A program made the translations under genes and the position numbers. A model generated the notes under the pieces. The model ran no database searches. It saw nothing but the letters and a program-made list of their open reading frames with translations, and was not told the origin of the DNA. A DNA stretch of 53,792 nucleotides from Myxococcales bacterium (GTDB lineage: Bacteria; Myxococcota_A; Polyangia; Polyangiales; SLQV01): positions 1 to 53,792 of the forward strand of contig SLQV01000043.1 of assembly GCA_007131285.1 (NCBI GenBank), in the 5' to 3' direction. Below are positions 19,164 to 23,204 of this stretch, piece after piece; position 1 is the first letter of the stretch, and each line of letters begins with the position of its first letter.

Positions 19164-21995
19164 GTGGGCGTGGCCAAACTATCTCCGAAAGCTGTGACCG
19201 CCTTGCTTAGGTGTGCCGATGCTGTTTCTCCAGACGCGGCGGAAGCAAACTATTGGAACATCGACCCTGCGTGTGGCTTGAAGAGCGGTCTCGGGCTCGA
19301 CCACGCAGCGCTGTGGCTCGACCATCTTGCTGAGCACACGAGACATCCCCATTTCGCCGCGCTCGCGGGGCGCCACCTCGTTGAGACGGCGCTCGAGTGG
19401 AAACCTAGGCAGCGCATGGGAGACCGCTTTAAACCGCCTACACGCGGTCTCGAGGCTTTTTTGCAGCGTGTGAATCGCCTGCAAATCGGCGGTATCTTCC
19501 GCCTAGTGTCCAGAGATGGGCCATTTTCGGCCGTTGTCGTTCTAGAAGTGCAGGCGGGCGCTTTGCCAGCGTGTTTGCACGAGTACTGGATCGGAATGCT
19601 CGAAGCCTTTCCTGCGTTCTGGCAACTGCCCTACGCGTGCGTGACGTCCGCGTCTGTCCCGCGGCAGCAGAAGGGAGGTGCCTCGCCCCAGCCTCAGCTT
19701 GGTTTCGCGGTGACCTGGTCCGCCGAGCCACAGTCGACACGCCTCTTTTCGCGCGCCTGTGCGTCCGCGATGGGTGTGGTCCTAGCCTTGGCTATTTGGT
19801 TTAGTGCTGACGGCCTCGACACAGGTGTGCGCGCTGCGCTCGCGTTAGTGCCCGCGGGAATGCTCGCGTGGCTTGTCGCTACGTGCTGCGTATTGCTCGG
19901 GCGCCTTTCGGTCAGTGACACGATTAACGCGCAGCAGCGCGTCAGTCTCGTGCGGGCCATGGACGAAGTGCGCCGCCGCTTTGATGAAAGCGAACGCTTT
20001 GCGGCTTTGCTACGCGAACGCCTCGACGAGACGGCCGTGCCGGTACGCGCTTTGGACCGCGCCGGCAGCATTGATATTTTGGCACCTAAATCACCGGGCG
20101 AAGATTCTACGAATGCGCGCGCGTACCCCATTGACCTTGGGGCTTGGATACGTGCTTTGGTAGATGAGGTACGTCACCGGTGCCTCGTGCCACCGGGACT
20201 TGTCCATTTCCGTCTGCCGCCGGAGCCGGTGTGGGCGCGCGTCGATGCGGACCGACTTCGCTACATCGCTAAGTTCGTGCTGCGCCAGATCATTCAAGAT
20301 GCACCGGATGAACTTGATATTCAGCTAGAGCTTTCGTTACAAGGGTGCGCTGTCATAGTCGATATCGAGGTGCAACCCGCGCCGAGTTCAACACGCGCGA
20401 TGCGTGGCGAAGCGCGCGCAGATGGCTGGACGACGCTCGGCGCGCTTCCCGTCTCAAAGACATCGAGTCTTAGCAACGAGCTCGTTAATCCGGAGCTTGC
20501 GCAGGCGTACATGCGTAATTTTGGCGGCCAGATCTTTGGTCCGGAGCGGCGCCCAAAGCATGGGTATGAATGTCTGGGTTTCCGCATAGAGTTGCGGCGG
20601 CACGATGCACCAGTGGCCCCGGGTCTGCTGCAGGGGGCGCAGCCGGCCTTGGATGGTGAAAGAGCGGCGAGGCGCGAGGGCCAAGAATCTGTCGAGATGT
20701 CTCTTGATGAGATTCGCGCACTCACCGATAAGCAGGAGGTGCCATCCGCGGGAGCAGAATCGCCGCAACTCAGCGCCCTTGCGGCGGAACGACTCCAAGA
20801 TGTTGCGGAGAGCCTGCTCCAGTCGGTATCCGTTTTAGTGGTTGCTCCGGATCAGCGCCTTAGGCGTCTGATCCGCCGCACGTTGGAGCAACATTTTCAC
20901 GTCAAGACGTGTCACGACGCAGAGGCTGCACTCGACGTTGCATCGCAGATGTTCCCCGACTTGATGGTCGTTGACATGAGCCGTCCGTCGCTCATTCAAA
21001 GTCAACTGCTTCCGCGCTTTGCGGCGCTTGGGGCGCGTTTCGCACGTAGCCCTGTGGTTGCGCTCACGGAGGAAGATCACCTTGCCAGCAGTCTCGAGTA
21101 CCTTCGATCCGGCAGCGGCGATGTACTGCGCATCCCTTTTCATCCCGAGGAGCTAGTCCTGCGCGTCCGCGGCCTGGTACGTGCGAAACTATGGGAACGG
21201 CAGTTGTTTCTCGCCTATCGGGATCTCGAGGCCCAGAAGGCCGAAATCGAGGAGGATCTCGCGCTAGCCCGCTCATTTCAGCGGTCGCTGCTGGGTGACC
21301 AAGCGAGGTGGAAGCAGCTCGGAGTGGCGGTGCGCTATGAGCCGATGTTAGCTGTCGGCGGAGACCTAGTTGATGTTGGTGACCGCGGGTCGGGGGCGGT
21401 GCGCCTGTTTGTTGCCGATGCGACGGACCATGGTGTGCAGGCAGCGTTGCGTACGGCGAGCATCGCTTCGTTCTACCGCCGCGTGACACGCGGCGGTACT
21501 AAGGGGCCCGCCCGGGTGATGCAGCAGCTTAATCGCGAAATGTTGCTATTCGGTGGCGCGCAGATGACGTGTAGCGCCGCGTGTATCGAGCTAGAACGTT
21601 CCGGCGCTCGAACCATGATTCGCGTGAGTGCCGCAGGTGATGTGGGGCTTGCGCTCGCGTGCGCTGCCGGTCAGTCCCGACCGTTGCCGCTCAGGGCTGG
21701 GTTGCCTCTGGGCATTCTCGAAGAAGCGGTCTACGTTGAGGTGGCTTTTGACGTAGAAGATGCCGGTTATTTGACCGTCTTCAGTGACGGGCTTACCGAG
21801 CAGCCCAATGCCCAAGACGTGACATTTCTTGAAGCACGCATGCCTGCCGCGCTCGATGCGATGGCGCGTGCAGAAGACGCGCAGCAAGCAGTCGCGGTTC
21901 TCAGCGCGCACTTCGAGGCTTTCCGCGGTGTGACCCCACCGCGCGACGATGTCGTGATCGTGGCCGCCCAACTTGCTAAGGGCCGTTCGGTGTGA
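19164..21995 (+). CDS. Multidomain PP2C/SpoIIE-type phosphatase with transmembrane, degenerate kinase and receiver regions
   Basis: This is likely a signal-controlled Ser/Thr phosphatase that resets a partner-switching pair. Order in 943 aa: an N-terminal domain of about 190 residues of uncertain family; two hydrophobic segments (about 200-250); a coiled segment; a histidine-kinase-like ATPase region with no obvious N-box; a receiver-like domain (about 555-680); and a PP2C domain (about 700-940). The receiver keeps an Asp in DLMVVDMSRP but has RIP in place of the usual KP. The PP2C domain keeps GGDLVD, VADATDHG, FSDGLTE and PRDDVVIV, so it should be active. The start is GTG. The next two genes encode an STAS-like protein and an anti-sigma-type ATPase. 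Confidence 0.85.
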   Translation: MGVAKLSPKAVTALLRCADAVSPDAAEANYWNIDPACGLKSGLGLDHAALWLDHLAEHTRHPHFAALAGRHLVETALEWKPRQRMGDRFKPPTRGLEAFLQRVNRLQIGGIFRLVSRDGPFSAVVVLEVQAGALPACLHEYWIGMLEAFPAFWQLPYACVTSASVPRQQKGGASPQPQLGFAVTWSAEPQSTRLFSRACASAMGVVLALAIWFSADGLDTGVRAALALVPAGMLAWLVATCCVLLGRLSVSDTINAQQRVSLVRAMDEVRRRFDESERFAALLRERLDETAVPVRALDRAGSIDILAPKSPGEDSTNARAYPIDLGAWIRALVDEVRHRCLVPPGLVHFRLPPEPVWARVDADRLRYIAKFVLRQIIQDAPDELDIQLELSLQGCAVIVDIEVQPAPSSTRAMRGEARADGWTTLGALPVSKTSSLSNELVNPELAQAYMRNFGGQIFGPERRPKHGYECLGFRIELRRHDAPVAPGLLQGAQPALDGERAARREGQESVEMSLDEIRALTDKQEVPSAGAESPQLSALAAERLQDVAESLLQSVSVLVVAPDQRLRRLIRRTLEQHFHVKTCHDAEAALDVASQMFPDLMVVDMSRPSLIQSQLLPRFAALGARFARSPVVALTEEDHLASSLEYLRSGSGDVLRIPFHPEELVLRVRGLVRAKLWERQLFLAYRDLEAQKAEIEEDLALARSFQRSLLGDQARWKQLGVAVRYEPMLAVGGDLVDVGDRGSGAVRLFVADATDHGVQAALRTASIASFYRRVTRGGTKGPARVMQQLNREMLLFGGAQMTCSAACIELERSGARTMIRVSAAGDVGLALACAAGQSRPLPLRAGLPLGILEEAVYVEVAFDVEDAGYLTVFSDGLTEQPNAQDVTFLEARMPAALDAMARAEDAQQAVAVLSAHFEAFRGVTPPRDDVVIVAAQLAKGRSV

Positions 21996-22253
21996 TGGCC
22001 TCCGCTAACACGGTATCCTTGCTCCGCTTTTGCGCGCGCTCTCGCCACCCTACGCCGCCGCATGCGGTGCAGAAAATCTATTGACCCGGCCCCGGGTGCT
22101 TTGCGAGCCTACCATAGAGATTCTAGATAGACGTTTGAGGGGAGCGATTCCGCAAGCGCGCGTGAGCTCGCGCTGGGCTCCGCGTCCATCTTTACTCGGG
22201 GGCGCATGTGGAGTGATGTTTCTGAAAGAAACCAATGTTACGCGTCCAGTTAT

Positions 22254-22269
22254 CCTTATTCGAATAGGG
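22254..22269 (+). promoter_or_regulatory. Palindrome upstream of the STAS-like gene
   Basis: CCTTATTCGAATAGGG contains the perfect 10-bp palindrome TATTCGAATA and lies 37 bp before the ATG of the STAS-like gene, within a 310-bp intergenic stretch (21996-22305) that otherwise shows no gene. It could be an operator; nothing identifies the regulator. Confidence 0.3.
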
Positions 22270-22305
22270 TGTACAGTTAGAGTTGCTTGGGGGAGATAAA
22301 TCGCG

Positions 22306-22689
22306 ATGACCCATGATGTATTCGAGTGCGATAATCTAACCGTTGTGCGCGAGCAGGATGGCGATACGTTGCGCTACGTCTGGCGCGGAGTGTGCGACCG
22401 GCGTGATGCCCCACCGGGGCTGAGTGAGTTCATTATAAATGAAGAAAGCCGTGCAGCGAGCATGCTTCGTCTAGATTTCACACCGCTAAAATTTGTGAAC
22501 TCACGGATGCTTGTGTTTCTGATACGCACCATAAAAGCTGTGAGCGAGCTCGGTACATCTGTTCACATAACTTACACTAGTAATGTGATATTTCAAAGCA
22601 ATCTATTCGCTGCTCTCGAGGGTGCGCTTGCGCATTCGGCTTCTCTTGTTTTTGAGGACCGAAAGTCAGTCACGCCAGGAGCGGCTTAA
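22306..22689 (+). CDS. STAS-like anti-sigma-factor-antagonist-type protein (slr1659-like)
   Basis: This is likely the switch protein of a partner-switching module, phosphorylated by the neighbouring ATPase and dephosphorylated by the upstream PP2C protein. The 127-aa product has the STAS-type core LRLDFTPLKFVNSRMLVFLIRTIKAV followed by a strand and a helix, as in the cyanobacterial slr1659 group. The usual phospho-acceptor Ser after the FxNS position is followed by Arg-Met rather than Ser-Gly. A strong ribosome site (GGGGGAGA) precedes the ATG. The stop overlaps the next start by one base (TAATG). Confidence 0.7.
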   Translation: MTHDVFECDNLTVVREQDGDTLRYVWRGVCDRRDAPPGLSEFIINEESRAASMLRLDFTPLKFVNSRMLVFLIRTIKAVSELGTSVHITYTSNVIFQSNLFAALEGALAHSASLVFEDRKSVTPGAA

Positions 22690-23204
22690 TGTCGGATCCA
22701 CATCTCTCGATGACCTTTGAGCTGCGTGGACCGAGAGGACGTGATTGGTCCCACGTTGCCAAGCTTCGGGGTGCGGCAGAGGCGCTAGCCCGGTCATTGG
22801 AGCTGCCAGCTGAGGTGCTGACAGCCATCGCGGTGGCGGTCGAGGAACTCGCTGAGAATTTGATTAAGTATCACCACTGGGAAGGGCAGGGCGACCCTTG
22901 TGCGCGCTTGACGATGGGCGTCGTGCATGAGTGCGCCGAGCTTGTCATCGCCTCGTACAGTCAGCTTCAGCCCGACCGTGGGCATCTTGAGCACCTTGGG
23001 AGCGTTTTCAAGAGTATTGAGGTGCACGGCCCGCGCGAGGCCTACACGCGCCGCATCAGTGAGCTTGCGGCGGGCGAAGATGGTGGCCAACTGGCTCAGT
23101 TAGGCCTCTACCGCATCGCAGTCGAAGGTGGCTTTACCCTTGCCCTAGAGCATGCCGCGGGCGCTGATATCACCATTACCGCGACCCTTCCTCTCCCGAC
23201 CTAA
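22689..23204 (+). CDS. Anti-sigma-factor-type ATP-binding protein (HATPase, slr1658-like)
   Basis: This is likely a serine kinase of the GHKL fold acting on the STAS-like partner encoded just upstream. The 171-aa product has the N-box VAVEELAENLIKYHHWEG (around residues 50-66), which fits the ELxEN pattern of RsbW/SpoIIAB and the slr1658 group. The G-boxes are not obvious, so the catalytic state is uncertain. It is translationally coupled to the STAS-like gene (TAATG), so the two proteins are probably made in equal amounts. Confidence 0.7.
   Translation: MSDPHLSMTFELRGPRGRDWSHVAKLRGAAEALARSLELPAEVLTAIAVAVEELAENLIKYHHWEGQGDPCARLTMGVVHECAELVIASYSQLQPDRGHLEHLGSVFKSIEVHGPREAYTRRISELAAGEDGGQLAQLGLYRIAVEGGFTLALEHAAGADITITATLPLPT

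Follow-up and report, generated by a model that had tools for sequence, protein, structure and literature searches.

A pseudo-kinase/pseudo-receiver PP2C phosphatase beside a STAS/GHKL-ATPase gene pair in an uncultured myxobacterium: a candidate partner-switching system resembling SiaABC

The SiaABC phospho-switch has been characterized biochemically and consists of the PP2C phosphatase SiaA, the kinase SiaB and the substrate SiaC (PMC7647112, PMC7278518). SiaB phosphorylates SiaC at Thr68 in the peptide LLYLNTSSIK, and SiaC activates the diguanylate cyclase SiaD. A second pair, slr1658/slr1659, is named by two superfamilies in NCBIfam (NF047703, NF047705), and slr1658 is known from a cyanobacterial iron-recovery mutant. 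Here, we analyzed positions 19,164 to 23,204 of a 53,792-nucleotide stretch (the window), which is contig C155 of the 3.1 Mb, 91% complete genome of an uncultured myxobacterium. The locus contains the gene of a membrane PP2C phosphatase of the SpoIIE type (P0001), followed by an overlapping gene pair encoding a STAS protein (P0002) and a GHKL-type ATPase (P0003). The first-pass annotation of this DNA had suggested an undescribed partner-switching system. Partner switching is indeed the best reading, and we consider it likely that the trio works as a phospho-switch like SiaABC and slr1658/slr1659, but its kind is not undescribed, because SiaABC is characterized and the pair belongs to a recurrent type already named as a superfamily by NCBI. 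What is new is the lineage-specific PP2C protein with a pseudo-kinase, a pseudo-receiver and a genus-specific input domain, which forms one of three parallel cassettes.

The STAS assignment of P0002 is based on its relatives and on structure prediction, as the protein itself matches no Pfam or NCBIfam family. A profile of 56 relatives matches TM1442, SpoIIAA and SiaC by sequence alone, and an orthologue matches Pfam STAS_2 with an E-value of 9.7e-4, which is below the cut-off. Furthermore, the AlphaFold2 model (predicted local distance difference test, pLDDT, 92) finds SpoIIAA in complex with SpoIIAB (E 1.8e-5) and RsbV (TM-score 0.80 by target length) in Foldseek searches, which places P0002 in the predicted SpoIIAA/RsbV/SiaC fold. 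Ser66 directly precedes helix 67-80, in agreement with the Ser/Thr at the start of helix 2 in STAS proteins, and a profile alignment sets it opposite Ser58 of SpoIIAA. The family signature is N-S-(S/A)-(T/C), with the N present in 52 and the S in 54 of the 56 relatives, and P0002 carries N-S66-R-M. This bears on the earlier statement that the protein lacks the standard phospho-site context, which did not hold: the context is of the N-[S/T] type of SiaC (V-N-S66 in comparison to LLYLNT68SSIK), the preceding Asn is a family-wide feature and only Arg67 is atypical.

P0003 matches Pfam HATPase_c_2 with an E-value of 1.1e-6. Its AlphaFold2 model (pLDDT 88.8) resembles SpoIIAB (E 1e-6), RsbW and SiaB (E 2.7e-4), in line with the GHKL-type ATPase proposed initially and with a SpoIIAB/RsbW/SiaB fold as modeled, and the profile of 59 relatives matches RsbW and SiaB by sequence alone. 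The protein has an N-box with Glu53 and Asn57, both of which are invariant in all 59 relatives, and a G2-like motif LGLYR, and is devoid of a DxGxG G1 motif. The column of the G1 Asp holds Asn in 50 of the 59 relatives and also in the aligned SiaB. As kinase activity is proven for SiaB, P0003 is not disqualified by the absence of a G1 box, and by fold and N-box residues it is a predicted GHKL Ser/Thr kinase.

The first-pass annotation had made the assignment of both small proteins depend on fold searches, and the profile searches with relatives together with Foldseek place them in the STAS and HATPase folds. The suggested resemblance to slr1659/slr1658 also stood up: 57 of 59 ATPase relatives match slr1658_superfam and 52 of 56 STAS relatives match slr1659_superfam, with E-values down to 4e-16. 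P0003 itself matches weakly, with 18.6 bits where the cut-off is 100, and P0002 gave no match to the slr1659_superfam model. Therefore, we file the window proteins as divergent homologues of the two superfamilies and not as members. The link to SiaBC is similar, in that P0002 and P0003 gave no match to the NCBIfam models of SiaB and SiaC and thus stay under their cut-offs. The SiaB model is matched by 12 of the 59 ATPase relatives (best E 2.8e-6) and the SiaC model by one of the 56 STAS relatives (0.0074), and within a single solved complex, 6KKO, the ATPase profile matches the SiaB chain (4.8e-5) and the STAS profile the SiaC chain (7.6e-4).

The positions of all features are listed in Table 1. 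All three open reading frames (ORFs) are conserved in a sister genome (contig G001:C316); protein identities are 68% for P0001, 81% for P0002 and 83% for P0003. The comparison revealed strong purifying selection, with dN/dS of about 0.06-0.10 in the receiver (REC), PP2C, STAS and ATPase parts, although these two-species ratios are rough because dS is saturated. P0001 may start at the GTG at 19170, opposite the ATG of the orthologue in the alignment. The reading frames of STAS and ATPase overlap, whereas the PP2C gene ends 310 bp upstream, so the co-translation suggested for the partners of the phosphatase holds for the STAS/ATPase pair only. A scan of the gap for promoter and terminator consensus sequences gave nothing above chance.

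Table 1. Features of the phosphatase/STAS/ATPase locus in window coordinates (aa, amino acids).
Feature	Position	Strand	Evidence
P0001, 943 aa membrane PP2C (SpoIIE-type) phosphatase with vestigial histidine kinase and degenerate REC	19164..21995	+	ORF, Pfam, orthologue/paralogue alignment
N-terminal domain, aa ~1-185, putative input domain	19164..19718	+	no Pfam/PDB match, own genus only
Two predicted membrane segments, aa ~194-218 and ~221-251	19743..19916	+	Kyte-Doolittle
Vestigial histidine-kinase ATPase without H-box, N-box Asn, G1 and G2	20133..20603	+	paralogue alignment; hhalign
Degenerate receiver with A-P for the acidic pair E-D (aa 561-562), Asp604 retained and R656 for K	20832..21179	+	Pfam 1.1e-8; alignment
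Coiled REC-PP2C linker, the best-conserved stretch (92% identity between the two species, dN 0.047)	21180..21350	+	two-species alignment
PP2C domain with metal-binding Asp734, 752, 875 and 929	21261..21983	+	Pfam SpoIIE E 1.4e-25
P0002, STAS-fold switch protein of 127 aa; Ser66 (22501-22503) in F-V-N-S-R is the predicted acceptor	22306..22689	+	AlphaFold2, Foldseek, orthologue Pfam match
TAATG, P0002 stop/P0003 start overlap (one base), coupling STAS and ATPase genes	22687..22691	+	sequence
P0003, 171 aa GHKL/RsbW-like ATPase, predicted Ser/Thr kinase	22689..23204	+	Pfam, AlphaFold2, Foldseek, residue counts

The mosaic structure described for P0001 in the first pass was largely borne out. Hydropathy supports both membrane segments, and the PP2C domain is intact: it matches Pfam SpoIIE, and the metal-binding Asp residues, all present in P0001, are conserved in 65 to 66 of 66 cassette PP2C domains. 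The degenerate kinase-like ATPase aligns with the intact HisKA/HATPase of two paralogues in the same genome and was also detected by hhalign profile-profile comparison (37 columns, probability 71%, P 3.6e-5). In the receiver the K-to-R change was found at R656, and in addition the acidic pair is lost, which leaves Asp604 as the only one retained among the Mg-binding acidic pair, the acceptor Asp and the Lys. The sister species shows the same losses in kinase and receiver. Regarding the supposed sensory-type domain, a domain of about 185 amino acids exists at the N-terminus and is a putative input domain, but it has no recognized homologue outside the genus, and a two-species profile found no Pfam or PDB match. 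Weak matches of this profile in two other genomes (G216, G256) seemed spurious, one being an unrelated frame and the other a short frame containing a stop, and an AraC-type Arabinose_bd domain was not supported. Constraint is unevenly distributed between the two species, with dN of 0.125 in the receiver, 0.047 in the coil and 0.124 in the PP2C domain in comparison to 0.32 in the N-terminal and kinase-relict parts.

The genome holds three PP2C/STAS/ATPase trios, which contain its three best SpoIIE proteins. The paralogous phosphatases on contigs C103 and C51 are HisKA-HATPase-REC-PP2C proteins with intact catalytic motifs, which explains the mosaic of P0001. A genome search with HATPase_c_2 did not find another RsbW-like ATPase as a separate protein, and Pfam STAS matched two proteins of the genome, a transporter of the SulP type and a fragment resembling DauA; therefore, the three trios are the only recognized partner-switching genes of this genome. 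Read by eye, the third trio (G000:C51, L016:4996-12000, L114; a kinase-receiver-PP2C protein with a membrane part, a STAS protein and an ATPase) overlaps at its start with the end of a large polyketide-synthase-like gene of equal orientation, and a ketosynthase-like gene lies in the adjoining stretch. A control of, or by, polyketide synthesis is possible for this trio.

Related loci were searched with a five-row ATPase alignment and counted in two overlapping samples of 66 and 68 ATPase loci, which together comprise 117 distinct pairs from four phyla and include Spirochaetota, Desulfobacterales and Gammaproteobacteria. The STAS gene adjoins the ATPase gene on the same strand at 65/66 and 67/68 loci, with either gene first. 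In spite of short contigs, a PP2C domain is found no more than 5 kb from the ATPase at 40/66 and 49/68 loci. Within the class, 110 of 290 genomes have an ATPase match, although some of the near-threshold matches are probably ordinary histidine kinases. The distance matrices of ATPase and STAS (r = 0.83) and of ATPase and PP2C (r = 0.62) are correlated, and none of 2000 permutations reached either value. The three cassettes of the genus fall outside the other 113 pairs (99/90 support) on long branches. In the survey of conserved neighbors, as proposed in the first-pass annotation, clustering did not reveal an output gene shared across the window lineage.

Some of these loci have features of their own. 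At 27 loci (L145, L147, L160, L175, L182 and others) from Desulfobacterales, Gammaproteobacteria, Myxococcota and Spirochaetota, a gene of about 470 amino acids with a C-terminal methyltransferase-like domain stands on the same strand beside the ATPase-STAS pair and a membrane PP2C gene; the methyltransferase-like gene does not recur at the locus studied here, and no description of the function of this four-gene operon was found. In large myxobacterial genomes (L102 in G254, L103 in G275), three similar PP2C-STAS-ATPase cassettes stand in tandem. PP2C domains within giant frames of about 1770-1900 amino acids occur near the pair at L053, L065, L069, L082, L083, L094 and L106. Furthermore, genes resembling multihaem cytochromes and MauG were seen repeatedly at a distance of a few kb from some pairs (L060, L089 and neighbors), perhaps indicating a redox link.

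Taken as a partner switch, the trio could operate as follows. In the basal state P0003 would bind P0002 and phosphorylate Ser66, and the membrane phosphatase P0001, once activated, would strip the phosphate from P0002. Unphosphorylated P0002 would then swap its partner and bind a target encoded elsewhere in the genome, which is probably not a sigma factor of the SigB/SigF type. P0001 itself appears to descend from a hybrid of histidine kinase, receiver and PP2C, of the kind present in the two paralogous trios. As its kinase and receiver are devoid of phosphotransfer residues, activation is probably conformational, and the signal could run from the N-terminal and membrane part via the degenerate receiver and the highly conserved coil to the PP2C domain. 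More tentatively, and as a possibility we would not put on a par with the switch itself, the genus may have rewired a phosphorelay-controlled kinase-receiver-PP2C protein, so that the dead domains only connect a new N-terminal/membrane input domain, specific to the genus, mechanically with the PP2C domain, and the protein acts on a non-sigma target beside two sister switches under phosphorelay control.

Several observations weigh against this proposal. P0002 has Arg67, found in 4 of 56 relatives, where 50 carry Ser or Ala, and Phe96 where 52 of 56 carry Trp, while P0003 is without a G1 box and has Ser91 in place of the family Asn; interaction or catalysis might therefore have changed. The PP2C gene lies at a distance at which it need not share an operon with the pair, part of the Mantel correlations stems from the common history of the species, and the STAS profile was built from neighboring ORFs. 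These deviating signature residues, together with the loss of the kinase and receiver motifs, could even be read as a broken paralogue on the way to a pseudogene. We consider such a decay very improbable, as the sister species has the same losses in full open frames, the dN/dS values indicate constraint on receiver, PP2C, STAS and ATPase, and every catalytic Asp of the PP2C domain is retained. The degenerate receiver may still be modified at Asp604 by another route, and P0001 would then work like SypE or HsbR with input from another kinase. Asp604 and Thr635 are kept and the receiver is 80% identical between the species, but in both of them A-P stands in place of the Mg2+-binding pair and Arg in place of the conserved Lys, which makes this reading doubtful indeed.

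With respect to the output, the folds closest to the models in Foldseek are those of SpoIIAB and SpoIIAA, and one FliA/WhiG-like group-3 sigma factor candidate is encoded on contig C27 (53.8 bits against a cut-off of 234). Both would fit a canonical sigma switch, in which P0003 is an anti-sigma factor and releases a sigma factor encoded elsewhere when it is displaced by unphosphorylated P0002. This seems unlikely to us: there is no sigma factor gene on the contig, in keeping with the first pass, which saw none nearby, no protein of the genome reaches the cut-off for the SigB, SigF or SigG type, and the closest characterized relatives with an N-[S/T] context, SiaB and SiaC, act on a diguanylate cyclase. 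However, with a 91% complete genome this absence is not proof. The remaining sigma factors are RpoD, RpoD-like and RpoH types and ECFs; an RpoH-like gene is counted twice, as contig C83 (L126, 11122 bases) reads the same as its own reverse complement, which almost certainly reflects an assembly artefact. A diguanylate cyclase or a comparable enzyme, controlled by the pair in analogy to SiaC and SiaD, is one possible output of the proposed phospho-switch and a somewhat better candidate, though still an improbable one. It is favored by the closeness of SiaC and SiaB, the nearest characterized N-[S/T] relatives among solved structures, and by four GGDEF proteins in the genome, but these are found on contigs C1, C47, C111 and C156 only, there is no GGDEF gene beside any of the three cassettes, and no GGDEF family was recognized among the recurrent neighbors.

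Our analysis ties the orphan slr1658/slr1659 pair to PP2C phosphatases across four phyla and to the well-studied SiaABC system, and it points to residues that can be tested, namely Ser66 in P0002, Glu53/Asn57 in P0003 and Asp734 in P0001. In addition, three parallel cassettes in a genome of this size, two with an intact and one with a dead phosphorelay, offer a natural comparison for PP2C activation.

Compared with known systems, the trio has the three folds and the division of labor in common with RsbU/RsbV/RsbW and SpoIIE/SpoIIAA/SpoIIAB, but differs in the N-S instead of a D-S context, the missing G1 box and the lack of a recognizable SigB/SigF target. With slr1658/slr1659 it shares adjacent genes for a GHKL and a STAS-like protein, whereas the window lineage branches outside the other pairs. 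The likeness to SiaABC(D) of Pseudomonas aeruginosa includes the membrane PP2C protein, the GHKL kinase with Asn for the G1 Asp in SiaB, and a STAS-fold substrate with the acceptor after Asn. Here, the acceptor is Thr in SiaC and a predicted Ser in P0002, the GGDEF protein SiaD is encoded inside the Sia operon, and the papers on SiaABC mention no remnant of a kinase or a receiver in SiaA (PMC7647112, PMC7278518). SypE of Vibrio fischeri also combines ATPase, receiver and PP2C in one protein and acts on a separate STAS protein, SypA (PMC12826045). However, the ATPase of SypE is an RsbW-like Ser kinase, whereas P0001 carries the dead relict of a histidine kinase and the predicted kinase is a separate protein, P0003.

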